Source: Rhizopus arrhizus (lineage: Eukaryota; Mucoromycota; Mucoromycetes; Mucorales; Rhizopodaceae). Taken from it: a stretch of 64,000 nucleotides of DNA. Below the pieces are notes generated by a model. It saw nothing but the letters and a program-made list of their open reading frames with translations. It was not told the DNA's origin and did no database searches. The position numbers and the translations under genes were made by a program. The stretch is taken from positions 1,226,591 through 1,290,590 of the forward strand of contig JAKZZE010000016.1 in the NCBI GenBank assembly GCA_024220505.1, read 5' to 3'. How positions within the stretch are numbered: the first letter of the stretch is position 1; each line of letters begins with the position of its first letter. This document shows, in pieces, positions 20,937 through 63,671 of this stretch.

Positions 20937-20975
<39 letters not shown>

Positions 20976-30690: not shown

Positions 30691-30735
30691 TATGTTTTTT
30701 TTTTTTTTTCTTCCATATATAATTTGTTTTAAAAA

Positions 30736-30847: not shown

Positions 30848-30887
<40 letters not shown>

Positions 30888-36474: not shown

Positions 36475-36475
36475 C

Positions 36476-36547
36476 TCCTCAATGGTCCAGTGGCTAGGAT
36501 CTGTCGCTTTCACCGACATGGCCGGGGTTCGATTCCCCGTTGGGGAA
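36476..36547 (+). tRNA. tRNA-Glu (anticodon TTC)
   Basis: 72 nt fold as a cloverleaf. Acceptor TCCTCAA pairs with TTGGGGA, the anticodon arm is TGTCG-CTTTCAC-CGACA with TTC, and the T arm is CGGGG-TTCGATT-CCCCG. No intron. The first 15 nucleotides plus one upstream base are duplicated at 9765-9780 because SINE-2 inserted here, but this copy is complete. Confidence 0.95.
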
Positions 36548-36776
36548 TAAAGTTTTACTGTTTGTCTCTTTTTATTGTATTGTGGTGCTGTAACACACAC
36601 AATGGGAAAACATTAAAAAATTGTACCACAAGAATTGAATGAATACAGACAGTGTTTGAATTCAGATGGCTGTACAGATTCATACTGTAACACAATGCAG
36701 CAAACTTTTGCAGCATTTGACTTTTCTCTCTCCAATTCAAATCCAGGAAAATACAAACAAATACGTATTGTAACAC
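36548..36776. other. Ancestral spacer downstream of tRNA-Glu
   Basis: Single-copy sequence between the tRNA and the foldback element. A/T-rich, with no gene recognised. It ends with the foldback's TTGTAACAC target copy (36768-36776). Confidence 0.5.
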
Positions 36777-38579
36777 ACAAGAATAAAACGGCGGAATTTA
36801 AATCGTTGCAGTTTATAACGAACGCCTTGCAGTTTATAACAACCACCTTACACTATACAACAACCGCCTCTTATGTCACTACGGCGCAAAGAATGCTTGT
36901 AGAAGAATACGAATACTGCTTGAAGCATTTTTTTACAGTGCTTCTGGTGTATTTTTGAGTTTATTTTTTGGTTGTTCTCCGCATTTTTTTTTAAAATGCT
37001 CCATTCATTTTTATTGCTCCACTTTTTTTTTTTTTTTTTTGCAGGTAAATGTTGAAATGGGCTGGATCTACTTGGCAAAATCACTTTTTAAACTATATAA
37101 AACCTGAGTTTTGCTGTTAAAAGACGTAACGAACCGATATTATACAACTTGCATTTTTCTGCATTATGATTGTAATGGTCGTAAAAAAGATTCCTTGTCA
37201 TTAGTTTTTTTAAGCAATTACAAAGAAAGTAGATTGTGTACAATTTTTTATTTTTTTAAAAAAAAAATGTTCTGCGACTCTCTTTTTTGTTTCTTTCTTG
37301 AACTATATTTTGTGGTTGTTTTTAGAATAGATAATTTGCAATAACAAAAAAAGAGACAACTTATAACTCCATTACTGCCAAAAATGTAAAAAAAAAGAAC
37401 AAAGCTTACGTTTTTTTATGCCTCTGTCAATTGTCGTATCTTAAACCACTTCCACATCTTGTGCTCTAGCTGATATGTTTTTAATGGAAACTTAAAATGT
37501 GAAAAAGAAGACATGTAAACATTATGGCAAAAAGTCAGTAATGCACCTGTACCGTTAGTTCTATTTATTTTAGCAAATTTAAACAAGATATTTTTTGATT
37601 GCTGTAACTTTTTTTTGTATCCAATTGTAGTACTGCTTCATTATACTTTTACTAGTCAAGTTACATTACAAACATTTTATGCTAATTAAACTGAGAGTGA
37701 TTTGTCATAGTTGTGAATCTTTATTTTTTTGTATTAAATATGGAGAAATAAACTGAAGAATATAAATGCGTAATAGATATAAAAAAGAGTTGTATAAACT
37801 ATTATCAAATTCAGACCATATACAATAAAGTAATTTGTTTATAAATTACTTCTTCATTGGGTAAAAATATTGATTTGAGTAGGCTGTCCTTTGTTATTAT
37901 ACTTTTTCTCTGTTATAGTCAGTTTAATTGAAGCCAAAGGAATTCAATCTGTTTGACTACTAAAAAACGATAGACCTAGCAATTGTTGTAATCATGAATT
38001 AAATAAACTGAATTTCAAAAATAATAATAATAAAAGAAAAAAAAAAAAAAAAAAACGAGTTTGCAAATGCTCTGGGATGACGTCGTTAGAACTTACAAGT
38101 GTTTCAAAAAGTACAAGAAACTTCCGATTGTACTTCTTTTCTTTCTTCATGTAATCCTGCTAACGAAATTCTTACGGCTCATAATTATTTTTACTATTCT
38201 AAACACTTGCTAACAATTAAACTATTATTATTTATTTTGTACCTTAATCTAGTTATTTGCCCCTTTGCATCAAAATTGCTCTTTTATCCTGAATTATAAT
38301 TATACCATGGTCGACTAATACATGGCTCCGTGAAAGTGTAAAAGTAAATAGTTATGGTAAAGAAAAATCCGTTTACTTTTAATTCTAATGATTTATAGAA
38401 GAAACTTGAACAACATACTTTTACAATTATTTAACAAGAATTAGCTTTTTTTAAGGTAAATAGTGATCGTTTGTTGATATACATTGCATCTAATGTATGT
38501 TTATAGTATATGAGCTACATTCCGTTTAGTCCTATGCTTTATGAAATATTTAGTAGAAAAAAAGTCTTTATTTGGTAGG

Positions 38580-38624
<45 letters not shown>

Positions 38625-38802
38625 GTTCAGTACTCATAATGAAAAAAATCTTATTTTGATTAGCATATTGGATATAAGGCTATAAATCCCTTTAACAACA
38701 ACGTAACACTGTAGATATAATGGAAGGTGTCAAATAACATATCATTTTGCAGTGCAACTTGTTAACAGATACAAAACCTGAAGCTTTGTTTAAAAACTCT
38801 TA

Positions 38803-40400
38803 CAGTGCCCCACAAAACCCTTCAAGTGTTTTGCTTTTTTTCGTTTTTTGCTTGTCACGAAGCATTGAGTACTACAATTGGTAGCATGCTATACCTTATT
38901 TGAAAGCTACGGTGGCAGGGTATTTGGATAATGTTTAAACTCCGAGATCCATGCAATGTCCGCGGAGTAATGACACTTTAAAAACAGACACACACTTGAA
39001 GGGTTTTGTGGAATTTAAAAAATCTCATGTTAATTTCGTAAAAATCATCATAAACGTCACAAAAATGTGACTTGTCAACTTTTTGTGTAAAACGTTTTGT
39101 TTATTTACAACTTTCTATTTTTTTGTTTGCCTTTTTTTATAACATAACCTAATTAAGTGACATGCGACCAATTAGCAATGACATGCAGAACAGAATCGTT
39201 CAACTTCTTAAAGAAAGAGTTTCTGGAGAAGAAGTATCAACGAAGACTGGTGTCAGTACTGGAACTATTTCAAAAATCCGAAAAAACCATGATTTGGGAG
39301 ATTTCAAAACTAATGGAGGCAGGCCATTCGTAATCTCGACATTACTAGGTCGTCGAATCTTGCGAAACTTCAACTCTGGCAATTACAAAAATGCTTCAGA
39401 CGCTGCTAGAAAGTTGTTAGAAGATGGTGAAAATATTAGTGCTGAGACTATTAGACGTTTTTTAAAAGAATCAGGTTATGCAGCAATTCATAAGCCTAAA
39501 GTCCTACCTTTGACTAAGCACCGTATGAAGAAAAGATATGAATTTGCACGTGCGCATCTATCATGGACCATCGAGGACTGGAAAAAGGTCATTTTCAGCG
39601 ACGAAACTAAAGTGAATAGGATTGGTTCAGATGGTTTACAATGGACTTGGACAAATGGTGACAAGTTAAAAGACTTTCAGGTTCAGCATATGATCAAGCA
39701 TGGAGGAGGTTCCTTGATGCTGTGGGGCTGTTTAACATGGTATGGTGTTGGATACCTATCGAATATCAAGAGAAGCATCAATTCTGACTTTTATATTGGT
39801 ATTTTGGAAGATGAATTAATGAAAACGATTGATTGGTATGACCTTCAAAAAGACGATATTATATTTCAGCAAGACAATGCTAGTATCCATACTGCCAAAA
39901 AAGTCTCTGAATGGCTGGAAAACAATAATATTACTGTATCAAGATGGCCACCTCACTCTCCTGACTTAAATCCTATTGAGAACCTATGGTCAATCGTAAA
40001 CCGTCGTTTATTACAATATGAAAAGCAGCCTGACGGAATGCTCGAATTATGGTCAAGAGTAGAGAATGCTTGGGAGTCAATTACTCAGAATGAGTGTCAA
40101 AAACTCATAGAAAGTATGCCTAAACGCATTAAAGCAGTTTACAATGCAAAAGGAGGACATCCTAAATATTAATTGTTGTTAAACAAAAATTCCACAAAAC
40201 CCTTCAAGTGTGTGTCTGTTTTTAAAGCGTCATTACTCCGCGGACATTGCATGGATCTCGGAGTTTAAACATTATCCAAATACCCTGCCACCGTAGCTTT
40301 CAAATAAGGTATAGCATGCTACCAATTGTAGTACTCAATGCTTCGTGACAAGCAAAAAACGAAAAAAAGCAAAACACTTGAAGGGTTTTGTGGGGCACTG
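38803..40400 (+). mobile_element. Tc1-like element Tc-b, probably active
   Basis: 1598 bp flanked by TA (38801-38802, 40401-40402). The terminal inverted repeats are long, 214 bp (38803-39016 and 40187-40400). Each contains the motif CACAAAACCCTTCAAGTGT twice, once at the outer end and once inverted at the inner end. B1 shows the empty TA site (near 18229). The transposase is uninterrupted. Confidence 0.95.
39162..40172 (+). CDS. Tc1-like DD34E transposase (Tc-b)
   Basis: 336 aa, the usual length for Tc1 transposases, with no stop or frameshift. Residues 1-60 contain a helix-turn-helix (EEVSTKTGVSTGTISKIRK) and 70-110 a second paired-like one. The catalytic core has the first Asp in VIFSDETKVN, the second in FQQDNASIH and the Glu in SPDLNPIENLW. 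Thirty-four residues separate the last two acids. It binds the terminal repeats and inserts the element at TA. The ATG at 39162 lies just after the left terminal repeat and the gene ends about 15 bp before the right one. The element is the best candidate for a live Tc1-like element here. Confidence 0.95.
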   Translation: MRPISNDMQNRIVQLLKERVSGEEVSTKTGVSTGTISKIRKNHDLGDFKTNGGRPFVISTLLGRRILRNFNSGNYKNASDAARKLLEDGENISAETIRRFLKESGYAAIHKPKVLPLTKHRMKKRYEFARAHLSWTIEDWKKVIFSDETKVNRIGSDGLQWTWTNGDKLKDFQVQHMIKHGGGSLMLWGCLTWYGVGYLSNIKRSINSDFYIGILEDELMKTIDWYDLQKDDIIFQQDNASIHTAKKVSEWLENNNITVSRWPPHSPDLNPIENLWSIVNRRLLQYEKQPDGMLELWSRVENAWESITQNECQKLIESMPKRIKAVYNAKGGHPKY

Positions 40401-40713
40401 TAAAACGATTTTTTTTATTACAGCTACAAAACGTATAAAAATAGTTTCTTGTAAAAGGTTTTAAGCATAGAAACATATGCATAGAATTTATTTGGATTAT
40501 AGTCGAAAAGTGATTTACGTGAATACAGCAATACATAAGAGAAGATTAGATATATATTTTGGATGGAGTTTTGATGGTAATTAAAAAAAAGAACATGGAA
40601 AAAGAAGTTATTAAATCATAGACATAGGCATAAAAGCATAAAAAAATAAAAAAAAAGAAGGCTACATAAATGAAATGAAGAAAAAGGCATTAAAGATCGG
40701 AAAGCATACCATT

Positions 40714-42275: not shown

Positions 42276-43881
42276 CAGTAAGGGACAAAATCAGTCCGTT
42301 TTTTGGTTTTTTCGCAATGCCTCGCCGGGAATTAAACTTAGGGCTTCGCTTTGCTGACGAAACATTTGCACGCAAGCTAGACAAAATTATTGGTGTAACC
42401 TAATTGCTTCTACCACCATTTTCTCTGTAGTTATGGCGGAAAAAGTGATTTTCCGTGATTGTTGCTAACGCCCGATTTTGCATTAGACACCATATCTCCA
42501 GAAACAGTCACTGGACTGACTTGAGATTTAGTTTGGTACGTCTTATGACGTCAGTGAACGCTAACGTGTTCTCATATTTTAGCTTCTTTTATTTTTTTAC
42601 ATTTTTTCTTTTTCCTCATTTACCTCATCTCAGATTAGCCAAACACGCCATGACAGCAAAGAATGCCGACAAACATGCCCAAATTGAAAACATGTTGAAC
42701 CACTCCATTCCATGGGATGTAATTAAAAAAAAAGTAGGCTGTGGAAAGTCCATGATTCGAAGAATTTCAAGGAAAACCAAGTTGCAGTCAAAAGATAGCG
42801 CGGGTAGACATCGTTTACTCACACCTAGGGAGGAAACCAAAGCAGCTAGAGACATAAGACTTGGCTTATCTAAAAGCGCAGCCGATGCTTCCTTTGGCGT
42901 TAAAAAACCAGATCAAATGGTCAATCCAAAAACAATTGCTCGTACTTTGAAACGCAAAGGTCTAAAATCGACTAAGAAAAAGACGGTACTTCCACTTAAT
43001 AATGACAAGCAAAAGGCACGATATGATTGGGCAAAGGCTCATAAAGACTGGTCCGAGACTGATTGGGAACGCGTTGTCTTTTCTGATGAGACAAAGATCC
43101 AAAAAAAGAGGGTCTAATGGTCTAGAATACGCTTGGAAAGAGGATAATGCACCTTACCGAGACCATCACTACAAAAAGAAACATGCTTATGGAGGAGGCG
43201 GGATCATGCTTTGGAGTTGCATAACTATACATGGAGGGGGCTACATGTCCTGGCTACAAAGTAATGTAAATGGTGAGCTATACACGTCAGTACTTGAGGA
43301 GGAATACAAGGAGACATTGAAATATTATGGCCTGCAAAGTAAGGACATGATCTTTCAACAAGATAATGCAAGCATCCATTGTGCTTCAGCTCCTTCAAAA
43401 TGGTTCCAAAAGAACAAGATTAAGCTCCTGAGTTGGCCAGCATACTCCCCTGACCTTAACCCAATTGAAAATGCATGGTCCATGCTTAAAAAGAAGGAAC
43501 AGATGACAAGACCACCTTCTTCTGTGGTTGAGACTGACCAAGCATTTTTTGACCGGGTTTCGAAGCTTTGGTATGACCTAGCAACTCCAGAGTACTGTAG
43601 AAACCTTATTCACTCTATGCCCCGTCGAGTTTGGGACGTAATCCAGCGTAAGGGCCGCGATACCAAGTACTAATCGAAATTCAAAAAAATAAAAATACAT
43701 TATTTTCAATATATCTTCTTATAACATGGCGGAAAATAAAAAATACCATTTCCGACAAATATTGTCAACTTTGTTGAAGGAAGAGACAAATTTTTCGTCA
43801 GCAAAGCAGAGCTCTAAGCTTAATTCCCGGCGAGGCATTGCGAAAAAAAACCAAAAAACGGACTGATTTTGTCCCTTACTG
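42276..43881 (+). mobile_element. Tc1-like element Tc-c
   Basis: 1606 bp, terminal inverted repeats of about 85 bp beginning CAGTAAGGGACAAAATCAGT, TA at 42274-42275 and 43882-43883. It is inserted in a T/A-rich part of B2; B1 lacks it. The transposase is complete apart from one homopolymer indel. Confidence 0.93.
42650..43673 (+). pseudogene. Tc1-like DD34E transposase (Tc-c), one frameshift
   Basis: From ATG 42650 (MTAKNADKHAQ) the first frame carries the DNA-binding part and reaches the first Asp block (VVFSDETKIQ). An extra A in a seven-A run (43101-43107) then ends it at 43117. The next frame continues with GSNGLEYAWK, FQQDNASIH and SPDLNPIENAW to a normal C-terminus at 43673. There are 34 residues between the last two catalytic acids. 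It is a single-event defect, or a sequencing error in a homopolymer. An upstream in-frame extension to 42455 is less likely to be coding. Confidence 0.88.
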
Positions 43882-45995: not shown

Positions 45996-46328
45996 TAAAT
46001 AACCCCAAATAATAATCTCAAAAAATACTTCACTTCTAACTTCCTAACTTCTCTCTTATTTTATTTTTACTTTTTCTTTTTATCAAATAAATATTCTTTT
46101 AAAGAGGCAAACTATCTCTTATTTTATTTAACATCAAGAACAAGAAGTCCCTTGAAGCTATTATACTTCATTGTAAATCCCCTTTTTTATTTTACTTTAT
46201 CTTTTTATTTTTATTCTACCTTAACTAAAACAGTTTGATCTACTTTATAAGATCTGGTGGTCACTATAACAAGCGAATCAAGCCAATCCAACTCATATAA
46301 AAGCAATTATTATACCAATTACAACTTA

Positions 46329-47983: not shown

Positions 47984-48587
47984 TAAGTTGTAATTGGTAT
48001 AATAATTGCTTTTATATGAGTTGGATTGGCTTGATTCGCTTGTTATAGTGACCACCAGATCTTATAAAGTAGATCAAACTGTTTTAGTTAAGGTAGAATA
48101 AAATAAAAAGATAAAGTAAAATAAAAAAGGGGATTTACAATGAAGTATAATAGCTTCAAGGGACTTCTTGTTCTTGATGTTAAATAAAATAAGAGATAGT
48201 TTGCCTCTTTAAAAGAATATTTATTTGATAAAAAGAAAAAGTAAAAATAAAATAAGAGAGAAGTTAGGAAGTTAGAAGTGAAGTAATATTTTTTGAGATT
48301 ATTATGTGAGGTTATTTATATGTTTTTGGGTTTTATGATTTTGTTCTGTTTTTGGTATTTTGAATGGTTGTTATAAGAGGCGGTTGTTGTATAGTGTAAG
48401 GTGGTTGTTGTAAATTGCAAGGCGTTCGTTATAAACTGCAACGATTTAAATTCCGACGTTTCATTCTTGTTTGTCACACTATCCAAAATGAGAATAAAAT
48501 ATACGACAGATCAAACACGATACAGTTTCATGCAAAAATCTACAGATACCTCAAAGCACTTCATAGAATGAACACTTCGGGAGGTAC

Positions 48588-48658
48588 TGCCGTGAGCAGG
48601 AATCGAACCTGCGTCGAAGCGGCCACAACGCTACGTACTGCCACTATACTATCACGGC
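48588..48658 (-). tRNA. tRNA-His (anticodon GTG)
   Basis: On the minus strand the 5' acceptor GCCGTGA pairs with TCACGGC. The anticodon loop TTGTGGC carries GTG, and the T arm is GCAGG-TTCGATT-CCTGC. The A-box region TAGTATAGTGG matches eukaryotic tRNA-His. One mismatch lies at the base of the anticodon stem. The first 15 nucleotides plus one base are duplicated at 63656-63671 by the SINE-1 insertion, but this copy is complete. Confidence 0.93.
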
Positions 48659-48659
48659 A

Positions 48660-48715
48660 GGTGTGGGTGTTTGTCGTAGTGGTTAAGCCGCTACCGTATG
48701 GGTTGAGTGTCCTCT
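48660..48715 (+). mobile_element. SINE-1, 5' tRNA-like head
   Basis: It starts immediately after the tRNA-His 5' end and contains a good A box (CGTAGTGGTTAAG). It is cut at TCT (48713-48715) by CACTA-A elements and resumes at 63192 with the B box GGTTCGAATCC. The joined head reads like a tRNA with a long variable arm, so a pol III promoter is expected. Confidence 0.85.
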
Positions 48716-50020
48716 CACTGCAAATAATTGGTGATTTTCAGCGTTCTCAGTCATTGACAATCATTGCTAACATCAAAAAATCAACGATTTGAATACCTTT
48801 GAGTAAACGAAAAAAATTAAAATACTCTGTATTGCACCTTTTTGAATTTTGAAAGAAGATTTAGATGCGAAAAAAATAAAGAAATTTAACAATCTTATTA
48901 ATTTTTTTGTAGGGTAAATATTCATAGAGTTATTCATGTTTTAAAAAAGTGTCTTTTTTTTTTCAAATAGTCTTTTTTTGGAAAGCCTGTTCTCCTCTAT
49001 CGTTGAAAGACCGATATTTTCTTTTTTTTCTTTTTGAGGGCAAAATGCGGATATCAAAAGCACTCTGCGATTATTTTGATCAGAAAATACATAATAGGAA
49101 GACAGTCTGTGATTTTTAGCTTAGTTCATTAGAAACATGTAACAGAACGTAACAAAATAGTTGCGTTTAGTAAAAAAAAGAAAATAAAAAAAAAGACAAA
49201 GTTAAAAAAAAGACCTAGTGAAAAAAAAAAAAAAAGAGAGCATAGCAATAAAAAGTTCCTTATTCAAATGAAAATAATAATCTAACAGTAAACATGTTTT
49301 ATAAAAATACAAATGCTTTTACATTATAACAAAAGAATACGTGTATATTCTAAAAAGAATAAAAAAAAAAGAAGCTTTGATAACATCTTATTACAAGGCA
49401 GTTATAATTGACAGATACAAGCACAGCGTTTTTGTTTTTTAAGTAAATAGATTGCTTTATTATTTTTTATGACAAATAATATAAAAGAATATATGTTTTT
49501 AAGCTTATACTGGTTCATTACTTACTTTATGTTTGCACATTGGTGTAATTTGCCATTAGCCATTAGCCATTAGCCATTAGAGATGTCAACATTACCAACT
49601 TTATCAAAAACAGCTTTTTAACAACAAGCAACAATAAAAGTTTGATATTCTTATAGCTTTATCGTGTTAAAAAGAACAACTTTGCTCATGAGGTTCATGT
49701 TCGTCATCCGAATGTGACCCATTAGGAATTCCTAATGGAAAAAAAAAAAGAAACTGACATTAGACTTGGTTATTACCTTTTTTTTATAAACTTACATATG
49801 ACCAATACTTGAGCTTTCTTTTTTATCTTTCGTATCTTCAATGTTAAATATGTTCTCTGAAACAAAACAAGGGAAAAAAAAATTTCTTTAGAACACGTAA
49901 AACTGTTACTGTTTAAGAACCGACATCCAAATTTAGTATATTTGCTTTAGTTTTTTTTGATCATGCATTTTTTTCTATCTTATTCCTCTACTAAATCCTG
50001 AATATTTTTTTTTTTTTGAA

Positions 50021-50182
50021 ATGAACGCTACTACTGGCATCCAAGTGTGGAAGAATCAATTTGATCCAGTTACAAGCAACAATATACTTACAATTTACAT
50101 GATTTTCAACCCTGTTGCTATATGTCCATATGTTGATAATCACCTTCTTACTCTCGCTCTGCCAAGAAGAATTTATATGTAA
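50021..50182 (+). pseudogene. Transposase remnant in A3 (start fused to C-terminus)
   Basis: A 53-codon in-frame fusion. The first four to five codons equal the transposase start (MNAT), and the rest equals its last ~48 residues (GIQVWKNQFDPV ... LPRRIYM). About 2.7 kb in between are missing, including all catalytic residues. Whether the small frame is translated is unknown; keeping frame could be chance. Confidence 0.8.
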
Positions 50183-50313
50183 CAACTATGCTAAATTATT
50201 CAAACATTCTTTTATTATTATTATTATTTATTTTACTAAAGAATCATTCAATAGACTATTATTGTTATTTTTTTTTGAAATTTTTATTCAATTTGTACAG
50301 ACAACAAAAGAGG

Positions 50314-50353
<40 letters not shown>

Positions 50354-50383
50354 AGGGGGAAAGAGAAAAGAGAAAGTAAACGC

Positions 50384-51631
50384 TTACTGCATAGGATTAG
50401 CAGCAGCAGAAGAGGAAAAGCCAAGGCCAGGAGAAGAAAAGGCCCAAGAGGGATAATCCTCATGGTCAAGGTTTGTGGGGAACTCCTTGTCGAAGTAGTC
50501 CACCACCCTTCTTGTTCTATTGATAGTGCCTTTTTTCGACAAGGAATCTCTCCATGCTTTTTGAAGAGAAGCATGGAATTCGTCCACCTGTAGATTAGTT
50601 AAAGGTATATTAGAAAATGAATACTATAACAAAAATACTACTTACTGCTTTACTTCGAAAGAGTGGTCTTTTTACCACAAACACAGGACCATGTTCATCC
50701 TCAGGACCATCTTCTTCCTCTGAGGTCCAATCGGCTATCAGAAGCTTTTTTCCAAAAGGAAAACGAGCTTCAAATTCCTCTGGGGCTGCATTGTAAGCAT
50801 TTCGCCTCATGGCGAGCTTCTAATGTAAAGAAGTAATGTAAGTACTTGAAACACTATATATTTCAATTTTTAAATATTAATTACTTACTGCATGCACACG
50901 ACTACGACGCGTTGATTCTTCTGACGTAGCCGTTAGCCCCTTACTTTCTCTCACCATGTAGTTGAATTTGTTTCTGACCATGCTGCGCAAGTCAGAAACA
51001 GTAATGCCAGCAGAAAATGGCTCCTTCTTGGCAGCTGCTACAAGCAAATCTCTGACCTTTGCGTTTTGCTTGTAGCGCAAGACCTCCTTCAGGTCAAAGG
51101 TGATACCCCGAGGGACCAGATGCTCTTTGTAGTACTTCAATATGAAAGCCTATATTTCAAAAAGGGTAAAACAAAAATTTAGTTATTATTTTGCACATGC
51201 TAATTTAGCTTTTAAATTCAAATTACACTTGTCGAGGCCTTATTCTCTTTGACCTCAGAAGGTTGCTGCTGTGGAGGCTGCTGTGGAGGCTGCTGCTGCT
51301 GTTGCTGCCCTTGTTGCTGTTGTTGCAGCAATTGCGTTAACTGCTCAATCTTCAGCTCCTGCCGACGTTGATTCTCCTCCTGTCGGCGTTGAATCTGCTC
51401 CTGCTGCTGCATCTGAGCAAAGATGGCCTCAAGGGTTTGGCCATTTGCAGAAGAGCCAACTGCGCCTTGCAGGCGAGAAGGCTCAAAGCTGTCAAAAGAC
51501 GCAACAGCAGTGGGAGCAGGAGAAGAGGACGGGACAACAGTGGATGATGATCCAGTAATGCTTGAAGATATTCTTGCCCTTTTAGGGGCATTACTGGGAA
51601 CGTTGATGGGGGTGGCAGCACGACGAGACAT
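50384..51631 (-). CDS. CACTA-A accessory protein, A3 copy
   Basis: Exons in order of transcription: 51227-51631, 50889-51149, 50646-50819 and 50384-50587, phase 0, giving 347 aa. Nearly identical to the A1 protein outside the Q-rich tract (ITFDLKEVLRYKQNAKVRD, RNKFNYMVRESKG, DWTSEEEDGPEDEHGP), with single substitutions. That this gene stays open in an element without a transposase suggests recent deletion, or a use of the accessory protein without its partner. Function is not recognised; an end-binding role is inferred. Confidence 0.82.
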
Positions 51632-52754
51632 TTTTTAAAACAAATTATATAAGGAAAAAAAAAAAAGGAAAAAAAAAAGAAAAAAAAAAAGAAAAAACAG
51701 GGGTACAAAATAAATTGAAGATGAGTACAAAACAAGGTGATACTTACATTTATTTTACAAAAGAAGCAAAGAAAAAAAGTCTTTGGTGTTAAAGATATTA
51801 CATTTAAATAAAAAAAAAAGAATTTAAACTGTTTATGAATAGCCTCTCTGAATGTTTCAATAGTTAAACAGTGTTAAAGAAAACTTATTGTTAACCGTTA
51901 ATGGGTAATTGTAACCCATGTAAAATGAGTTATAAAAAATGTACTTTTTTTCCTTTTTTTTTCCTTTTTTTTTTCCTTTTTTTTTTCTTCTTTTTTTTTT
52001 CTTCTTTTTTTTTTTTTTTAAAAAAAACAATTCTTTCTAAAAGGTAAGTTCTTAACATTATATATATTCTATTTCTATTCTTATGGTATTTGTTCTTTAG
52101 TAAATTTGTGTTGGTTGCTTTCTTTATAGTTTAAATGGTCTTTATAAAGTCTCTTCCAGGATTATCATTGCTTCTTTTTTACTTGTTGCTATAAGCTTGG
52201 CTGGTGTCTTTTTTTTCTTTTTTTTTATCTCATGGTCTATCTAAAGCAAGGTACTATTACTTTTACTATATACTCGATAGCTAATATTTACTATAGATGC
52301 GTTCTGCTTCCTTTTTTTTATACTTGTTGGTAAAGCTTAGCAAGGTTTTTCTCTTAGCCCATCTAAATAAAGGTACTATTACTTTCATTATATATACACG
52401 ATAGCTAATAACTATTATAGATGAATGCTGCTTTGCTTTGGCCTCGTCTATCTCTTTTCTGTCTTTGCTTTGGTTCTTAAGTACTGATGTTTTTTCTTTT
52501 GCTTTGAGTGCCCAAGTCCTCGAATCCTTGTGTCTCTGAATCCTTGAGCTTGGCTTTTTTTTTTAAAAATTTTTTTTTGAGTTCCACGAGATTAATTGAT
52601 GTATTTTTAGATTAGATGCTGCTATCCTGATGACATTAGGTAAGTCAATTACACTTTTAAAACGCTACTAGCAAAGAAATACCATGTATTGTTATTGTTA
52701 TTTTATTTAAATAAAAAAAAAGCTGTTTTTTATAAACCAAATACCTATTTTTTG

Positions 52755-52965
52755 TGTATATAAAGCAATATTTATTGCAATATGAATAGCCAATAAAGAA
52801 GTATATAAAGCTATATAAGTGGTTCATAAAGAAGTATATAAGCTATATGAGTGGTCAATAAAGAAATATATAAGGCAATATAAGTGGTCAACAAAGAAGT
52901 ATATAAGGCAATATGAGTGTTCGATGAAGAAGTATATTAGGCAATATGAGCGGTCGATAAAAGAA
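52755..52965. repeat. Subterminal 33-34 bp tandem repeats of A3
   Basis: Six to seven units containing AAGAAGTATATAAGGCAATA (inverse orientation to those in A1) near the accessory-gene end of A3. The unit number differs between copies: A4 (55445-55550) has about three and A5 (62815-62935) about four. Confidence 0.8.
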
Positions 52966-53232
52966 CAAAAAGACATATAAAGTAATGTTTTAAAACGTAT
53001 CATTCGTTGCTCAACCGTTGACTAGTGTTGATTAAAGCGTAAAAAATGTTTTGGTAAGAGAATGCTAAACAACCTCCTCTTGCTTGCTTAAAAGATATTA
53101 AACGCTTAATGAACTGCCGCGAAAAACGTTTAAAACAGCAATAAATTCCGTTGATTTGCGTTAACTTTCGCGTATTTGCGCTCATTTATGCTAAAAAACA
53201 ACGTTTAATATCTCCAATTATTTGCAGTGTCT

Positions 53233-55881
53233 CACTGCAAATAATCGTTCCAATTAGGTACCGGATTGCGCAAGATTGCTCTTCTTTTGGGTAACGGATT
53301 GTTATTTTTTTTCCTGAAAAAAATTAAATCTTGCTGTATTGATCATTTTCGAATTTTGAAAAAAGATTTAGATACGAAAAAAATAAAGAAATTTAACGAT
53401 GTTATTATTTTTTTTGTAGGGTAAATATTCATGGAGTTATTCACATTTTTAAAAAAATGTCTTTTTTTACAAATGATCTTTTTTTGGAAAGCGTATTTCT
53501 CTCCATTGTTTAAAGACCGATATTTTCTTTTTTTGTTTTTGAGGATAAAATGCGGAAAACAAAAGCACAATGTGATTATTTTGATCAAAAGAATACATAT
53601 TTGGAAGGCAGTCTGTGATCTTTAGCTTAGTTCATTTGAAGCGTGTAACAGAACGTAACAAAATAGTTGCGTTTGGGAAAAAAAAAAAAAGAAGCTGAAA
53701 AATTAAAAGTAAAAAAAAAAAGACAAAGTTAAAGAAAAAGACTGAGTAAAAAAAAAAAAGAATATAGCAATAAAAGATTCCTTATTCAAATGAAAACAAT
53801 AATTTAACAGCAAATATACTTTATAGAAATGCAAATGTTCTTGCATTATAACAAAAGGATACATGTATATTCTAAAAAGAATAAAAAAATAAAGAAGCTC
53901 TGCTCAAATTTTATTACAAGGCAGTTATAATTAACAAATACAAGCAAAAGTTTTTGTGTTTCAAGTAAATAGATTGCTTTATTATTTTTTATGACAAATA
54001 ATACAAGAGAATATATATTTTTAAGCTATATTGGTTCATTACTTACTTTATGTTTGCACATGGGTGTAATTTGCAATTAGCCATTAGCCATTAGAGATGT
54101 TAACATTGCCAACTTCCTTTATCAAAAAGGGCTTTTCAACAACAAGCAACAATATAAGTTTGATATTCTTATATTTTTATCGTGTTGGAAAGAATAACTT
54201 TGCTCATGAGGCTCATGTTCATCATCCGAATGTGTCCCATTAGGAATTCCTAATTTAAAAAAAAAAGACCGACATTAGACTTGGTTGCTATTATTTTTTT
54301 TTATAAACTTACATATGATCAATACTTGAGCATTCTTTTTTATCTTTTGTACCTTTGTCATCTAGTGTATTCCATGAAACAAAACAAGGGAGAAAAAAAA
54401 AAAGATATTGTTTTACTGCTATAATTTGTTAAGATACCGACTTTTTTTTTATTTCAAGTAAAAAATAAAATAAATAATACCCTTCATGCTAAACATATTG
54501 CATTCAAGTAATAAACCTTGTTCAAGTAATGTATCAGTTACCTTTTGGGATACCATTAAATACAGACTACATGAAAAGCAACAGTTTTTGATTTCTAATA
54601 TGGATAGACATTGAATAAGTGTAACATTGGTAAAATAAGGCTACAAAAAACGCACTTCTGTTTTTTTTTTTTTTCTTTTTTTTTCTTCTCTTTTTTTATA
54701 AAAGGTAAGTTCTTAATATTATATATATTCTATTCCAGCTCTAATGGTGCTTTTACTGTAGTAAAGATGTATCGGCTGCTTTCTTTATGGTTTGAATGGT
54801 CTTTATAAAGTCTTTTTCCCAGGATTATCATTGCTTCTTCTTTTCCTTGTTGATATAAGCTTGAGTAGTTTCTTTTTTTCTTTTCTTTTTTTTTTTCATG
54901 GTCCATCTAAAGCAAGGTACTATTACTTTTACTACATACACTCAATAGCTAATAATTATTATAGATGTGTGCTGCTTTTTTACTTGTGAGTATACGCTTA
55001 GCTAGTTTACTTCCCATGGTCTATCTAAAGAAAGGTACTATTGCTTTTACTACATATACACGATAGCTAATAAATGTTATAGATGAATGCTGCTTTGCTT
55101 TGGCCTCTTTCTGTTTCTTTCCTTGTTTTTACTTTGGTTCTTAAGTACTGATGTCTTTTCTTTTGCTTTGAGTGCTCAAGTCCTTGAATCCTTGAATCCT
55201 TGTGTCTTTGAATCCTTGAGCTTGGCTTTTTTTTTTCTTTTTTCTTTTGAGAACTTTTTGAGTTCCACGAGACTAATTGATGTATTTTTAGATTAAATGC
55301 TGCTGTTCTGGTGACATTAGGTAAGTCAAGTACACTTTTAAAACGCTACAAGCAAAGAAATATCATATTTTGTTATTATTATTTTATTCAAATAAAAAAA
55401 AAGCTATTTTTTATAAACAAAATCCCTATTTTTTTGTGTATATAAAGCAATATTTATTGCAATATGAATGGTCGATAAAGAAGTATATAAAGCAATATAA
55501 GTGGTTCATAAAGAAGTATATAAGGCAATATGAGTGGTTTATAAAAGAGCAAAAAGACAAATAAAGTAGTGTTTTACAAAGCGTGATTGGTTGCCAAGCA
55601 CCATTAGATATCAAATTGATAATAAACAAGAGCCACAACGTAACTGATGAAAGATCCATCTTGCAAGATCAGTTAACGAAAAAGTCTCCCAACAGTCTCC
55701 TGTGTTGGCCACAAATCTTGTACCATCACATAACCAAAGGGCGAACAATAACTTACACGATTTGTGGCAGAGACAGAAGGCTGTGCGTGGATAAATCTCT
55801 TACCTGATTGTACACGAATGTAAATTATTTCGCAAGGTTGCTAGTCAATCAGGTAACGAATTTGCACTATTACTTGCAGTG
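53233..55881. mobile_element. CACTA-A element A4, non-coding derivative
   Basis: Ends CACTGCAAATAATCGTTCC and an imperfect ATTACTTGCAGTG, flanked by TCT at 53230-53232 and 55882-55884. It is 2.65 kb, equivalent to A6 without its Tc1 insertion and in the opposite orientation. It holds no gene, only ends, subterminal repeats and A/T-rich filler; the open frames are short and not shared in frame with the coding copies. Confidence 0.92.
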
Positions 55882-57194
55882 TCTCACTGCAAATAATCGT
55901 TCCAATTAGGTACCGGATTGCGCAAGATTGCTCTTCGTTTGGGTAACAAATTGTTACTTTTTTTCGTGAAAAAAATTAAATCTTGCTGTATTGATCATTT
56001 TCGAATTTTGAAAAAAGATTTAGATACGAAAAAAATAAAGAAATTTAACGATGTTATTATTTTTTTTGTAGGGTAAATATTCATGGAGTTATTCACATTT
56101 TTAAAAAAATGTCTTTTTTTACAAATGATCTTTTTTTGGAAAGCGTATTTCTCTCCATTGTTTAAAGACCGATATTTTCTTTTTTTTATTTTTGAGGGCA
56201 AAATGCGGAAATCAAAAGCACCATGCGATTATTTTGATCAGGAGAATACATATTAGGAAGGCAGTCTGTGCTTTTTAGCTTAGCTCATTAGAAACGTGTA
56301 ACAGAATGTAACAAAATAGTTGCGTTTGGGAAAAAAAAAAGAAGCTGGAAAATTAAAAGTAAAAAAAAAGAGACAAAGTTAAAAAAAAAGACCTAGTGAA
56401 AAAAAAAAAAAAAAAAAAAAGAGCATAGCAATAAAAGGTTCCTTATTCAAATGAAAACAATAACCTAACAGTAAACATGTTTTATAAAAATACAAATGCT
56501 TTTACAATGTAACAAAAGAATACGTGTATATTTTAAAAAGAATAAAAAAAAAGAAGCTTTGTTAACATCTTGTTACAAGGCAATTATAATTAATAGATAC
56601 AAGCACAGTTTTTTTTTGTTTTTCAAGTAAATAAAGTGCTTTATTATTTTTTATGACAGATAACATAATAGAATATATGTTTTTAAGCTTATACTAGTTC
56701 ATTACTTACTTTATGTTTGCAGATGGGTGTAATTTGCCATTAGCCATTAGCCATTAGCCATTAGAGATGTTAACATTGCCCACTTTCTTTATCAAAAAGA
56801 ACTTTTCAGCAACAAGCAACAATATAAGTTTGATATTATTATAGTTTTATCGTGTTAAAACGAACAACTTTGCTCATGTGGCTCATGTTCGTCATCCGAA
56901 TGTGTCCCATTAGGAATTCCTAATGTAAAAAAAAAAAAAAAAAAAAAGAAGCCGACATTAGACTTGGTTGTTATTATTTTTCTTTATAAACTTACATATG
57001 ATCAATACTTGAGCATTCTTTTTTATCTTTTGTACCTTTGTCATCTAGTGTATTCCATGAAACAAAACAAGGGAAAAAAAAAAGGTTACTTTAAGCACCG
57101 ACTTTGTTCTTAAATTTAACATGTTTTTTTTATCAGGCATATTTTCTCTTTCTACCTATTTTCTTTGCTATTTCCAAATTTAAAAAATATAAAC

Positions 57195-60102
57195 ATGAAC
57201 AACTTCAACGCCACCAAAATTATTTGCACCTGTTCTGAATGCAGCAACCATCCCAATGGATTTAGAATGCTTGCAAAGAGAACTGTAAGAGGCCATGAAC
57301 TTATCGACAGAGTTAGAAATAGAGGTTTTTTTTTTATTTTATTTTTCAATAGAAATCCAAACGTGCTAATTAAAAAAAAAAAAAAACAAAATAGAATCGA
57401 GAAGAGTATCTGAAGCTAACGACAACGGGGAGGAAACTGTCGAATACTCATCAGCCATTCCTGAATCAGCAACTGAAGGTATATTTTTAATCAACAAAGT
57501 GTTTAATATAAGAAAGGTTTTATTTATTGAAATGTATTTTGCAACTTGTTAGACGGAATGAATGTTGACGAAGAGGAAGGAATGAGCAATGAAGAACAGC
57601 TTCGTCACCTCTTGCTGTTGTTCATTGTGCTTTTTCAAGCAAAGCACCTCTCGGTGAAAGCCGGTGAAGACTTGTTGGCCTTTCTTTCCTTCTTTGTCCG
57701 TTCTCTTGGCCATGGTATGGAGATTCCTACAAAGATCTCTACTGCCCGTACTATGGTCAATTATTCCTCTGCCAGCAATGGTTTGTCCCGTTTTCTTGTT
57801 TGCTCTGCTTGTCGAAGCGTTTACACTTCTGGAAGCTTGCATTCTCGCTCCTGTGGTTATGTACGCTTCCCTAACAACCCTTATCGACAAGCACAACCAT
57901 GTGGAAATGCTCTTTTTGTAGGCAGCAGTTTAAAGCCAGTGCTTGAGTATCCCTACAACTCAATTACTGAGACTTTAAAAAAGTTCTTTATGCGACCCAG
58001 TTTTGAACAACAAATTGAGCAATGGAGAAGAAGATCAGTTGATGAAGATGTCATGTTCGACATATATGATGGCAGAGTTTGGAATCAGCTTGTGGATTCA
58101 AACGGGCAAATTTTTACCAGCCAACCAAGATCATTGATGGTATCCTTGAATGTGGATTGGTTCCAGCCAAGTGACAATATGAAGCATTCTAGTGGTGCCA
58201 TTTACCTTGCAATCAACAATCTGCCAAGAAATACACGTATGAAGTTTTCCAACATCGTTTTGGCAGGTGTTATTCCTGGACCACATGAGCCCAACGATGA
58301 TCAAATTCAAAATTTCTTGAAGCCATTAGTAGATGAATTGCTTGTACTGTACAATGGTGTTATAATGCCCACTTACGAAAATCCTAACGGAGAACTAGTT
58401 CGTGTGGCATTAATGTCCATCAACTGTGATATGCCTGCAGCAAGAAAAGTAGCTGGATACATGGGCGCCATGGCTACTAAAGCATGTAACAAGTGCTCAA
58501 CTGCTTTTGGCCGTCTATCAACTGGTACCAGGTCTTCAAAGCCAAACTTTTCTGATTTCAACGATGAAAACTGGGTGCAAAGAACATGGGAGCAGCAGAG
58601 ATTTGATGCGTACGACTGGTTGACTGCTACGCACAAGGCACAACAAGAAGAAAAGCAAGCAAGTTCTGGTACAAAGTGGAGTGAAGTACACCGACTTCCT
58701 TACTTTGATGTGGTGAGATATGTAACTGTCGATCCAATGCATAACTTGTTTCTTGGAACTCCTAAAAAAATGATTGAAGTCTGGCAGGATTTTGGCTTGC
58801 TTGTTTCTACTGATTTTTCAGCAATGGCAACAGAGTCGACTACTATCAGCATTCCTCAACAATACGCTAAGCTATCTGAAGGTATGTAGTACTGCTTGAT
58901 CGTGTTTATATATACATGGAATAAAGCTTTATTTCATGGTGGAGCAAAATACTTATTTTTTTTTAAAAAAAAAAAATAAATAGGAAAAATCTCTGGTGCT
59001 TTTGCCAATATGAAATCAGATGAGTGGAGGACTTGGGTTGTTGTGCTGTCACCTTTCCTGCTCAAACAAAAACTGGCAGGTGAACATTTTACGAACTGGT
59101 TGCGGTATGTCGATGCTGTAAAATTGGTCACTGGCCCTTCCATCACAGTAGAAGACATAGATACCGCAACATCTATTGATGAAAAATTTTGGCAAGACCT
59201 GTGTCGAGCTGTATGGTGAATCTATGCCCACCCCAAATATGCATATGCATCTTCATTTGAAAGAAAGCTTCCTGGACTTTGGTCCATCATACTCTTTTTG
59301 GCTTTATGGCTTTGAACGTCTTAATGGCGATATGAAACATATCAACATCAATTTTAAGACTGGATTTGAAACAACTTATACTACTATGTTCATTCAAAAT
59401 GTTCACACACAAGATCTAGTATATTCTTTACATTCCTTTATCAATTCAACAAACGAAGACATACTCCTACTAATTAAATTTATAGAAGAGATAGGTGAGG
59501 TTACGAATGACGAGAGTGGTTTAACGCCATTTGATTACTCTCGTTTCATAGACGGACCTAGCTTATTCAATTCAACAATAACTGGTAGTGAGCCTCTGCC
59601 ACCCACATCCTTTCCTTTAAATTTCGACAATCGAACCCAACTTATATGCCCAGAACACTATGAACAATTGATTAATTACTACACCTACACCTATGCACTC
59701 ATCCCTGGCACGTTTATCAGCAATATTATTCATTCATTTAAAAATATAAACTTGCTTGGACAAAAATATACGTCATCAAATAATAATTCAACTTCTTCAT
59801 CCTCCTGCATTATCCAAGCTATTATCAACAACGAAATACGCATTGGTCAAATTTCTTATCTCTTTACACATTCATTTAACAACTACACTCATTACTTTGC
59901 ATTTGTCAATTGGTACAGCCATGCGACCCATCACTTTCCCTCCTTTGATGATACTGGCATTCAAGTGTGGAAAAACCAGTTTGACCCAGTCTCACAACAA
60001 AATATACTTCCTGTTCACAAAATTCACAATCCAGTAGCAGTGAAGTCATATTTAGATAATCATATTCTTACACTTTCTCTCCCAAGACGGATCTATATGT
60101 AA
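57195..60102 (+). pseudogene. CACTA-A tnp2-type transposase, A5 copy, one frameshift
   Basis: Exons 57195-57324, 57395-57478, 57553-58881 and 58984-60102 have the same borders as the A2 copy, and the protein is almost identical to it. One extra A at 59168-59169 (GCAACATC where A2 has GCACATC) shifts the frame in exon 4, just after SITVEDIDTA. This is upstream of the TPNMHMHLHLKES and FERLNG blocks, so the predicted product lacks the catalytic Glu. The rest of exon 4 is open in the shifted frame down to the normal stop. Unlike the other frameshifts in the window it is in a run of only two bases. Confidence 0.9.
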
Positions 60103-60266
60103 AAACTATGTCGAAGCGTTCATTCATTCATTTATTATTATTATCATTATTATATTGTTGTTTTATTATATATTTTACTAAAGAATCATTCAATAGACTT
60201 TTTTTAAAAAATTTTATTCAATTTGTGAAGAAACAACAAACCAAGAAAAAAAAAGGGGAAGAATGC

Positions 60267-61381
60267 CTACTGCATTGAACTGGAAGTCGCAAAAGAGGAA
60301 GAAGCAGAAACAGAGGTTGGAAAACCAAGAGCAGAAGAAGAAAAAGCCCAGGAAGGAAAATCGGCATCATCAAGTTTGTCGGGGAACTCCACCTCAACGT
60401 TTTCTATTATTCTTCTAATAGTTGGTGGAGCCCCCTTTTTCTTCATCGACTCCTTGTATCGTTTTTGCAACTCTTCGTGGAATTGCACCACCTATAGATT
60501 AATTAAGGTATATTAGAAGATAAACTTGTCAACAACATTTTGCTTACTTCGTTGCTTCTAAATGATGGCCTTTTGACCACGAACGTACGGCCGTTCTCGT
60601 CCTCTGGCCCATCTTCTTCATCTGACGTCCAGTCAACAGTCAGAATTTTACCAGCGAGCGGGAAACGGGCGTCGAACGCGGAAGGGTTAGCCATATAAAC
60701 AGATCTCCTGTTAGAGAGTTTCTATTGTAAGGTATCAATGTAAGTATTTCCTATATTTTATAGTATAATCTTCAAAATATTAAATACTCACCGTATTTAT
60801 ACGGCTACGACAGGTAGTTTTTGGTGAAACAACTGTCTTCCCCTTGGCCTTGCTCATCATGTAGGAATACTTGCTCCTAATTATAGCATTTATTTGTGAG
60901 GTGGTGAGCAAATCAAAACGATGGTGCTTTCTGGCTTGCTCATACAACAACGCCTTGACCTTTCTGTTGTTTTTGTGGGCAAAGGTAACGTCCAAGTCAA
61001 ATTCGCTTCTGCGACCAACAACGTAATCACGGTAGTATTCTGCTAAATAACTCTATATGACACAGAAAGGTATAAAATATAGTTATTAAATTACAATTAC
61101 TAATTTAATAAATATGTCCTAAACTTACACTGCATTCTTTTTTGGCCGCGTCGACCTCAGCTTCTGAAGCTCGCTGATGCTGCTGCTGTTGCTGTTCCGG
61201 CTGCTGTTGCTGTTGCTGCAGCAACTGTTGTAATTGCTGTATCTGAGCAGCTATTATCTCTGGTGCGAGACCAGAGGCTGCTCCGATGGCTTCAGTACCA
61301 ACAGGGCTCTCCAAGCGAGGAGCTGTAAAGCTACTGAAGCTTGCAACAGGAACAGGAACAGGAACAGGAACAGGAACAGGA

Positions 61382-61415
<34 letters not shown>

Positions 61416-61557
61416 CAGCAGGAACAGGAGCAGAAACAGGAGCAGCAGCAGAAACAGGAACAACGGTGGATGATGATCCAGCAATGCTCATGGAAATTCT
61501 TGCTCTCTTGGGAGCATTGCTGGGAACGTTGATGGGGGTGGCAGCACGACGAGACAT
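60267..61557 (-). CDS. CACTA-A accessory protein, A5 copy
   Basis: Exons in order of transcription: 61129-61557, 60792-61052, 60548-60721 and 60267-60491, giving 362 aa. Same subfamily as the A2 copy; the extra length lies in the Ala/Pro/Val microsatellite of exon 1 (61330-61460). The conserved exons 2-4 keep their exact lengths and the motifs FDLDVTFAHKNNRKVK, DWTSDEEDGPEDEN and WAFSSSALGF. The upstream sequence is uninterrupted (unlike A2), so this may be the best expressed copy of its subfamily. Function is not recognised. Confidence 0.82.
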
Positions 61558-63191
61558 TTTTTAAAACAAATTATATATGGAAGAAAAAAAAAAAACATAA
61601 GTACAAATAAATTGAAGATGAACACAAAACAAGATGATACTTTTGTTTGTTCTACAAAAAAAGCGAAGAAAAAAAAGCCTTTGGAGTTAAAGATATTACA
61701 TTTAAATAAAAAAAAAAAGAAGAGAAAGTTTAAACTGTTTATGAATAGCCTCTCTGAATGTTTCAATAGTTAAACAGTATTAAAGAAGACTTATTTTTAA
61801 TCGATAGTGGTAACTGTAACACTGGTAAAATGAGGCTATAAAAAAAGTACTTTTTTTTTTTCCTTTTTTTTTTTTTTTCTTTTTTTTTAAACAAAACATT
61901 CTTTCTAAAAGGTAAGTTCTTAACATTATATATATTCTATTTCTATTCTTATGGTATTTTTTTTTTAGTAAAGTTGTGTTTGTTCCTTTCTTGATGTTTT
62001 AAATGGTCTTTATAAAGTCTCTCCCATGATTATCATTGCTTCTTTTACTTGTTAGTATAAGCTTGGCTGATGCTTTTTTTTCTTTTTTTTTTATCTCATG
62101 ATCCATCTAAAGCAAGGTACTATTACTTTTACTATATACTCAATAACTAATAATTATTATAGATGCGTACTGCTTCCTTTTTTTTTTTTTTTTACTTGTT
62201 GGTAAAGCTTAGCAAGGTTTTTCTCTTAGCCCATCTAAAGCAAGGTGTTATTATTTTTGCTACATATACTCAATAGCTAATAAATATTATAGATGTCTGC
62301 TGCTTTTTTAGTCGTTTGTATACGCTTAGCTAGTTTTCTTCCCATGGTCTATCTAAAGAAAGGTACTATTACTTTTATTATATATACACGATAGCTAATA
62401 ACTATTATAGATGAATGCTGCTTTGCTTTGGCCTTTTCTATCTCTTTTCTGCCTTTGCTTTGGTTCTTAAGTACTGATGTCTTTTCTTTTGCCTTTGAGT
62501 ACCCAAGTCCTTGAATCCTTGTGTCTTTGAATCCTCGAGCTTGGCTTTTTTTTGTCTTTTTTTCTTTTTTTTCTTTTTTTCTTTTTTTCTTTTTTTTCTT
62601 TTGAGAACTTTTTGAGTTCCACGAGACTAGTTGATGTATTTTTAGATTAGATGCTGCTATTCTGGTGACATTAGGTAAGTCAAGTACACTTTTAAAACGC
62701 TACAAGCAAAGAACTACTATGTATTGTTTATTATTATTTTATTTAATAAAAAAAAAAAGCTATTTTTTATAAACAAAATCCCTATTTTTTTGTATATATA
62801 AGCATATTATTGCAATATGAATGGTCAATAAAGAAGTATATAAAGCAATATAAGTGGTTCATAAGAAGTCATAAGGCAATAGGAGTGTTCGATGAAGAAG
62901 TATATAAGGCAATGAGCGGTCGATAAAAGAACAAAAAGGCATATAAAGTAATGTTTTAAAAGTATCATTCGTTGCCCAACGTTGATAGTATTAATTGAAA
63001 CGTAAAAATGGTTTGGTAAAAGAACACTAAACGACCTCCTCTTGCTTGCGTAAAAGTTATTTAACGATTACTGCTCTGCCCTCGAAATCGTTAAAAGAGC
63101 AATAAATTCAGTGGAGTTGCGTTAAACTTCGCGTTGTTGCGCTCATTTATGCTAAAAAACTACGTTAATATTCCAATTATTTGCAGTGTCT

Positions 63192-63655
63192 GGACATGCA
63201 GGTTCGAATCCTGCCTTCCTGCACGGTCACATGACTTCCTTAACGTGCGTCGTCTCTGGCTTTTCGGTGTGTCCCGCCTGTGGTTGCGTTGCGTGCCAGC
63301 TGGGTACTGGTCCACCTTCCCTCCCTTCGGTGTCCCCGTTGGTATTCCTTTCTGTTCTCTCTTTCTCCCTGGGTTTTGACGCCGCTGCTGTTCTAGTCGG
63401 TTTGCGTGTGGCTGTTTGGTGAGAAGCAATTATCAGCGTTGCAAGGATGCCCACCTCGGGGCTTAATGAAGCAATGTCTCTCTTTCTCTGTTTCCAAGTC
63501 TTCGCCTGTTCGCTTCAGCTAAAATAATCGCTCTGCTACCCTCCATTCCCTTCCCCCATACAGTTTGTATGCTTTCCCAGTTCGTTCTGTGGTCAAGCAA
63601 TTAATGAACACATATGTCGCCTGCATATTTGACAATAAAAAATAAAAAGTTTCGT
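63192..63655 (+). mobile_element. SINE-1, B box, body and 3' tail
   Basis: Resumes with a tRNA-like T arm (GCAGGTTCGAATCCTGC), then the GC-rich body shared with SINE-2, then TGTCGCCTGCATA and an A-rich tail (ACAATAAAAAATAAAAAG). With 48660-48715 the SINE is about 520 bp. Open frames in the GC-rich body are not conserved between the two SINEs. Confidence 0.88.
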
Positions 63656-63671
63656 CTATACTATCACGGCA
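63656..63671 (-). repeat. Target duplication of SINE-1 (tRNA-His nt -1 to +15)
   Basis: The 16 bases CTATACTATCACGGCA equal 48644-48659, which are position -1 to +15 of the intact tRNA-His on the minus strand. Here they abut the SINE tail and are followed by unique sequence, so this is not a tRNA gene. Confidence 0.92.

Follow-up and report, generated by a model that had tools for sequence, protein, structure and literature searches.

Tails of Rhizopus arrhizus LINEs and tRNA-headed SINEs adjoin one position within the A box of many tRNA genes

Introduction

Transfer RNA (tRNA) genes are landing sites for several kinds of transposable element. Long interspersed nuclear elements (LINEs) beside tRNA genes, LINEs with restriction-type endonucleases inside them and Dada transposons are all already known, as far as the available portions of the literature describe them. 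Dictyostelid TREs insert upstream of tRNA genes, at a distance of about 47-50 bp, or downstream, at about 100 bp, and NLTR-A is found on the upstream side at only 2-6 bp from the mature tRNA, according to the available parts of three sources (PMC5391098, PMC5006619, PMC5911963). In comparable portions of other papers, NeSL-type and LIN LINEs insert in tRNA-Pro, -Arg and -Glu genes (PMC4640811), Dada DNA transposons target tRNA nt 8-13 with 6-7 bp duplications (PMC8869645, PMC3706591), and Ty3-type long terminal repeat (LTR) elements co-localize with tRNA genes in Rhizopus oryzae (PMC2699053). The subject of the present analysis is a set of LINEs and short interspersed nuclear elements (SINEs) with tRNA-like heads in Rhizopus arrhizus. 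It starts from a stretch of 64,000 nucleotides, referred to here as the window (contig JAKZZE010000016.1, positions 1,226,591 to 1,290,590, assembly GCA_024220505.1), in which SINE sequences lie at a tRNA-Glu and a tRNA-His gene.

An original prediction, made from the window, held that two SINEs had inserted at a fixed position of these two unrelated tRNA genes and had duplicated 16 bp, from nt -1 to +15. In the reading preferred here, to which a probability of about 0.87 is given, LINEs with an apurinic/apyrimidinic (AP) endonuclease and tRNA-headed SINEs would enter tRNA genes at a single structural position, by target-primed reverse transcription. The evidence is drawn from sequence throughout.

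Results

Junctions at the 5' ends of tRNA genes

The host assembly comprises 50,257,186 bases in 41 contigs. Copies were collected by searching this genome with parts of its own SINEs, 40 candidates being scored per search, and the partly overlapping matches numbered at least 47 for the SINE A body, at least 40 for the SINE A tail, at least 40 for the SINE C body and at least 46 for the SINE B body. The sequence sample consisted of 39 loci with long flanks (one of them, L032, overlaps the palindrome of the window described below) and the short tail flanks of 33 loci, one locus being common to both sets. Tail junctions were read by a script with hand-written tail patterns for five families (SINEs A, B and C, LINEs D and E). 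The scan covered the loci other than L001-L008 and L048-L077, and the patterns missed at least one LINE D tail (L017, also at Ile). The tRNAs for Glu, His, Pro, Ala-AGC, Ala-TGC, Asp and Gly were named by ARAGORN and Ile by its anticodon, read manually; four tRNA-like starts seen once each are putative.

Of the 96 tails read (SINE A 25, SINE B 36, SINE C 15, LINE D 14, LINE E 6), 94 adjoin the 5'-terminal 15 nt of a tRNA or tRNA-like gene, in antisense. The targets were Ile (29), Pro (22), Ala-AGC (15), Asp (12), Gly (5), Ala-TGC (3), Glu (2), His (2) and four others (one each), and at one of the two remaining junctions the first 10 nt of Ala are present and then cut by a later insertion. As a control, one or other of the tRNA 5' motifs was found at 35 of 200,000 random positions drawn from the window and the loci longer than 1 kb, a pool rich in element stacks. 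Beyond the tRNA remnant, the head of another element often comes next. These tails bear out the expectation that duplications of 14-17 bp, fixed in tRNA coordinates, would be found in most other copies. The cut is shared by unrelated tRNAs, as had been proposed: it falls at the same position in genes for Ile, Pro, Ala, Asp, Gly, Glu, His and a few others. The suggested polarity was likewise observed, with the tail on the duplicate of the tRNA 5' part and the element 5' end at nt 1 of the whole tRNA gene. A complete gene adjoins the element 5' end, in agreement with the claim that the duplication rebuilds it.

The 96 junctions come from many contigs and form 47 clusters. They would overstate the number of events if a few original insertions had been multiplied by segmental duplication or recombination. 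Duplication is suggested at L014/L015, at L098/L099 and at the two Glu junctions, which are copies of each other within the window palindrome, and L032 points to recombination, its SINE A having Pro sequence at the head and Glu sequence at the tail. However, at least eight confirmed tRNA kinds each have their own duplicate, the clusters contain 78 distinct sequence contexts, and the heads vary in extra bases and truncation. Multiplication of a few insertions is thus a highly improbable account of the junctions as a whole.

Probable position of the nick

All 11 tRNA-Ala genes, which were matched by a pattern permitting A or G at nt 15, have A15, as do all five tRNA-Gly(TCC) genes of a sample of 40 genes chosen from 63 Rfam matches scored. 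In contrast, G15 is present at all 15 Ala junctions and all five Gly junctions. Base 15 is therefore taken to be encoded by the element, and the primer most simply ends at A14. Most simply, the nick would fall between A14 and nt 15, and the duplication would be tRNA nt 1-14, which looks like nt 1-15. A duplication from -1 to +15 was rejected as a general rule because of these A15 genes with G15 junctions. The 16-bp matches of the original prediction are real, but its duplication limits are not upheld, the bases beyond nt 1-14 being partly coincidence.

The marks of target-primed reverse transcription are present, namely a target duplication, an A-rich tail and some 5' truncation. At 49 of 72 head junctions the element begins at its canonical first base directly after tRNA nt 1, and the others have extra bases or small losses. 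Eight such 5' extras were listed by script, six of which fit the antisense start of some known tRNA, most being only 1-2 nt long. Among the longer 5' extras of LINE E and of a third head type, F, read by eye, ATACCCGC (L173) fits the antisense 5' end of Phe. The extras AAGGCCGGG and GCAAGCC fit none of 23 known tRNA starts, and CATTTCCCCC fits only with an added C. Resemblance to an antisense tRNA 5' end was noted at L122, L173, L045 and L043; at L122 the extra CGACC is the antisense 5' end of tRNA-Ile, though the target is Ala. Antisense transcription of elements from inside a donor tRNA may be the source of these bases. Three donor-tRNA patterns were guessed from odd 5' junctions, of which two had no match in the genome and the third matched only the window's own copy.

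LINEs and the predicted common 3' hairpin

A LINE with a SINE-like 3' end had been predicted, and two were found, LINEs D and E, with the same three-stem 3' fold as the SINEs. The LINE D copy on contig 12 is 4854 bp long and is flanked by two Ile duplicates; its first and second open reading frames (ORF1 and ORF2) measure 359 and 1137 codons from stop to stop. The LINE E copy on contig 32 is about 5.0 kb long, with stop-to-stop frames of 336 (ORF1) and 1194 (ORF2) codons. The two are 52% identical over 1154 amino acids in ORF2 and 34% identical over 287 in ORF1. Pfam identified PF14529 (3.1e-10), PF03372 (6e-06) and RVT_1 (3.9e-23) in LINE D, the AP-like endonuclease being N-terminal in ORF2, and RVT_1 (5.8e-25) in LINE E, whose AP-like endonuclease was recognised by eye only. 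ORF2 thus combines an AP-like endonuclease with a reverse transcriptase, as in AP-endonuclease LINEs. The nearest proteins to the LINE protein are from Rhizopus (95% identity over 78% of the query in R. arrhizus, 87% over the whole in R. stolonifer). A sequence search of the PDB gave no match for the endonuclease piece, and for the reverse transcriptase piece it gave LINE-1 and R2 proteins with similar scores, so that no clade could be assigned. Three pattern matches to ORF2 relatives in viral contigs were obtained, none of which was confirmed.

The SINEs have a tRNA-like head, with A and B boxes judged by eye, and a 3' fold in common with the LINEs. One representative per family was folded, and in all five the approximately 40 nt ahead of the A-rich tail form three stems (outer, middle and inner). 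The outer stems are GGAUA/UAUCC (SINE A), GGUC/GACC (SINE B), GGAU/AUCC (SINE C), GAAGA/UCUUC (LINE D) and GAGUA/UACUC (LINE E). MAFFT misaligned the outer stem, and the common shape rests on the separate folds, which predict that SINEs and LINEs share a 3' RNA hairpin shape.

Choice of target by family

The families differ in the base at nt 13. C13-A14 tRNAs are the targets of LINE D (14 of 14), SINE C (14 of 15) and SINE A (20 of 25), and T13-A14 tRNAs are the targets of LINE E (6 of 6) and SINE B (35 of 35 tRNA junctions). This difference suggests base recognition next to the nick, probably by ORF2.

Alternatively, TFIIIC and TFIIIB could bring the LINE complex to active tRNA genes, in which case the fixed cut would be set by the position of these RNA polymerase III (Pol III) factors and not by base reading. 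This could well be the explanation, though we lean slightly against it. The cut is common to many unrelated tRNAs, and no junction among the 96 falls within a SINE head, though SINE A heads carry 12 nt of the tRNA-Ala A-box region. The A-box sequence alone is therefore insufficient for target choice. In the parts of the literature available, Dictyostelium TRE5-A needs the B box, its ORF1 protein binds TFIIIB, and TFIIIB-guided Ty3-type elements have positions like those of the LTR-like elements found here about 8-11 bp upstream of tRNA genes. However, recruitment alone would not predict the nt 13 difference between families, and the cut is constant to the base across isotypes, while TRE5-A, as described in those sources, spreads over a window. 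Recruitment by Pol III factors and base reading by ORF2 may act together.

RNA-guided homing was also considered. Read-through into the 14-nt antisense tRNA remnant would yield RNA that pairs with the nicked strand and returns the element to the same kind of tRNA. The priming strand is complementary to the remnant beyond each tail, element RNA must have been the template for the C at position 15 of the Ala and Gly junctions, and LINEs D and E and SINE B stay within tRNA classes. However, five kinds of target were recorded for SINE A (Ile, Ala, Pro, Glu and one other tRNA) and at least six for SINE B, so target changes are common and homing of this type is unlikely.

Elements or their remnants occupy position -1 of all 11 tRNA-Ala genes: a LINE D head in four, a SINE A or C head in three, a 5'-truncated SINE A or LINE D in two and, in the last two, a short remnant resembling a head (about 9-11 nt) ahead of an LTR-like start. 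Among nine Ile genes, four have LINE D heads, one has a head remnant and four have other sequence. Head type F was found at Lys, Met and Phe genes.

Structure of the two loci in the window

Both repeat pairs of the window, 9765-9780/36475-36490 and 48644-48659/63656-63671, are exact. The features of the tRNA-His locus are as follows (position, strand, feature).

48587..48659, minus: tRNA-His(GTG) gene, intact (ARAGORN; manual reading puts nt 1 at 48658 and the first SINE base at 48659)
48644..48658, minus: tRNA-His nt 1-15, near copy of the duplication
48659..48715, plus: SINE B tRNA-like head up to the CACTA-like insert (TCT at 48713-48715)
48716..63188, no strand: later CACTA-like insertion(s) within SINE B (Transposase_21 gene at 57531-58889)
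63189..63655, plus: remainder of SINE B, B box to 3' tail (TCT at 63189-63191)
63656..63670, plus: tRNA-His nt 1-15 antisense, remote copy (63656 possibly the element's own last C)
63671..64000, plus: start of LINE E (ACTTTTCTTTCGCTTTTGG...; about the first 90 bases compared, by eye)

A single SINE B is cleanly split here, with TCT flanking the insert on both sides. The 16th base of the His repeat is an A that opens the SINE B head (AGGTGTGGG) at one copy and the LINE E head (ACTTTTCTTTCG) at the other. The order of the parts suggests that LINE E entered this tRNA-His before SINE B. The tRNA-Glu locus is less simple.

9766..9780, plus: tRNA-Glu nt 1-15, remote copy on the SINE A tail (9765 also equals the near copy)
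9781..10253, minus: SINE A, from just upstream of the B box to the 3' tail (tail end at 9781)
10254..36418, no strand: later insertions, CACTA-like elements and a Ty3-type element, rearranged
36419..36474, minus: 56 nt from the CACTA-like end to tRNA-Glu, without match to the SINE A head
36476..36490, plus: tRNA-Glu nt 1-15, near copy of the duplication (repeat comparison)
36476..36547, plus: tRNA-Glu(TTC) gene, intact, rebuilt by the duplication (ARAGORN)

The Glu locus was rejected as one simple SINE; its tail side is SINE A, but 36419-36474 is not the SINE A head. Part of this segment, GGCCGGGTGGTCTAGT, was found once in the genome. Because this segment is unlike the SINE A head and the CACTA-like ends have no matching duplication, the locus is considered rearranged. 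The claim of two SINEs at two tRNA genes thus stands for His, where SINE B is split by the insert, and for Glu on the SINE A tail side only. The 16th base is also equal in the Glu repeat pair.

The window also contains an inverted repeat of 4307 bp (1-4306 and 5401-9705, 99.93% identity) with about 1.1 kb between its arms, which extends left of the window. This palindrome may be recent or an assembly artefact.

Insertions within SINEs and other nearby elements

The intervals between the repeats (26.7 kb at Glu, 15.0 kb at His) are mostly not SINE and contain CACTA-like elements, together with a Ty3-type element at Glu. This content rules out one giant element in each 27-kb and 15-kb interval, and the long distances are due to later insertions, chiefly CACTA-like, within the SINEs. 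The CACTA-like elements have CACTGCAAATAAT ends, a Transposase_21 domain (Pfam, 2.7e-19) and a 3-bp duplication at His (TCT/TCT); no matching 3-bp duplication was found for the ends at the Glu locus. CACTGCA-type ends occur in 32 distinct contexts in the fetched stretches and the window. By manual reading of CACTA-like ends, 16 lie in SINE heads within about 12 bases of the B box and two elsewhere in SINE bodies. Selection of the stretches around SINEs biases the fraction of ends that fall in SINEs, and affects their clustering inside the SINE less. Ends in SINEs were seen at window positions 10254, 48716 and 63188 and at L010, L023, L025, L026, L028, L029, L034, L035, L041, L042, L119 and L127. 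Insertion near the B box of SINE heads would be a second fixed-site habit in the same tRNA-like promoters.

Frames rich in Gln and Pro that start with MSRR lie near Transposase_21 genes (window 11771-12397, 51352-51873 and 61105-61560) and are possibly a second gene of the CACTA-like elements. Transposase frames of Tc1/mariner type were found at 39153-40172 (Pfam DDE_3 and HTH_Tnp_Tc3_2) and, by eye, at 42449-43673 and 46180-48132. LTR-like sequences with a TG start are found some 8-11 bp upstream of numerous tRNA genes, and several of these sequences sit inside the first bases of a LINE or SINE head (window 9755 leftwards; L134, L148, L149, L150, L157, L161, L165, L168, L170, L175 and L178). 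Their positions fit the Ty3-type preference known for R. oryzae from the available part of PMC2699053.

Discussion

Integration at one structural position could proceed as follows. The LINE ORF2 endonuclease would nick the RNA-like strand after A14 in the A box, and the freed 3' end of nt 1-14 would prime copying of LINE or SINE RNA ending in the shared hairpin, an A-rich tail and C. The opposite strand would be cut at the mature tRNA start. The site may be recognised through A-box bases read by ORF2, through recruitment by Pol III factors or through both. Because the tRNA gene is rebuilt, it could be hit again, so that elements would stack upstream in nested order with the youngest adjoining the tRNA.

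Several observations weigh against this account. First, the SINE B tail of L105, one of the 96, adjoins non-tRNA sequence (CTATTTGTCTATGTC), which may represent an off-target insertion or a later rearrangement, and L101 and L104, which are outside the 96 junctions, have no readable tail end. Secondly, the A box of SINE A heads (GGATGTAGCTCA) is identical to that of tRNA-Ala over 12 nt, yet SINE heads are not the site of any junction. Third, five SINE A junctions depart from C13, four at Pro and one at an A13 tRNA. Fourth, the hairpin comes from single folds of stretches trimmed by eye, with z-scores of -3.3 to -1.3 that are weak in two of the five families. Lastly, a LINE or SINE head follows 0-9 extra bases in only nine of the 40 sampled genes, and all four Arg genes of that sample have neither head nor remnant; about seven more of the 40 have a short head-like remnant ahead of an LTR-like start.

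A wider picture can be offered tentatively, its chances falling just short of even. LINEs D, E and F and the SINEs would form a Pol III-anchored retroelement ecosystem in which elements cut after A14, share out the tRNA genes according to nt 13 and restore the target; each tRNA gene would then serve repeatedly as a landing pad and preserve the order of the insertions. A LINE that cuts a position common to many tRNA genes and then restores the gene would have a near-harmless, re-usable safe site. Such a system makes it possible to test how an endonuclease reads a promoter element present in many sequences and not one sequence. It would also allow insertion order to be read from position alone in the stacks before tRNA genes, where SINEs with tRNA-like heads end up directly before real tRNA genes.

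Comparison with known systems

The eel UnaL2 system is a LINE/SINE pair with a common 3' end, and the Rhizopus SINEs and LINEs similarly share their 3'-terminal RNA structure. Pairs of the UnaL2 type are not known to be specific for tRNA genes.

No earlier account was found of an AP-endonuclease LINE/SINE system inside tRNA genes with a single structural cut position for many isotypes; the literature covered lacks most subscription papers and Repbase reports, and a prior description is possible. The Ty3-type elements of R. oryzae share the same or a close host and the use of tRNA genes as landing sites, but they are LTR elements. The available part of PMC2699053 tabulates LINEs in R. oryzae and describes no LINE or SINE inside tRNA genes.

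Three further comparisons are based on the accessible portions of their sources. First, Dada elements also use a fixed structural A-box position of tRNA genes, but they are DNA transposons, each family of which mainly uses its own tRNA; the Rhizopus LINEs and SINEs use many kinds and have a 14-bp duplication and a reverse transcriptase in place of the DDE transposase and 6-7 bp duplication of Dada. Secondly, NeSL-type and LIN LINEs, like those of Rhizopus, insert specifically inside tRNA genes. However, they are grouped with restriction-like-endonuclease LINEs and are each listed for one tRNA kind, whereas the Rhizopus system includes SINEs, uses many kinds and has an AP-like endonuclease in LINE D, with no restriction-like Pfam domain in the two pieces scanned. 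Third, the dictyostelid TRE5, TRE3, NLTR-A and NLTR-B elements are, like those in Rhizopus, AP-endonuclease LINEs tied to many kinds of tRNA gene. The dictyostelid LINEs are described beside the gene (for the TRE family, some 50 bp upstream or some 100 bp downstream of it), whereas the Rhizopus tails lie on nt 1-14 inside the gene, with a cut within the A box and a fixed duplicate of these nucleotides.

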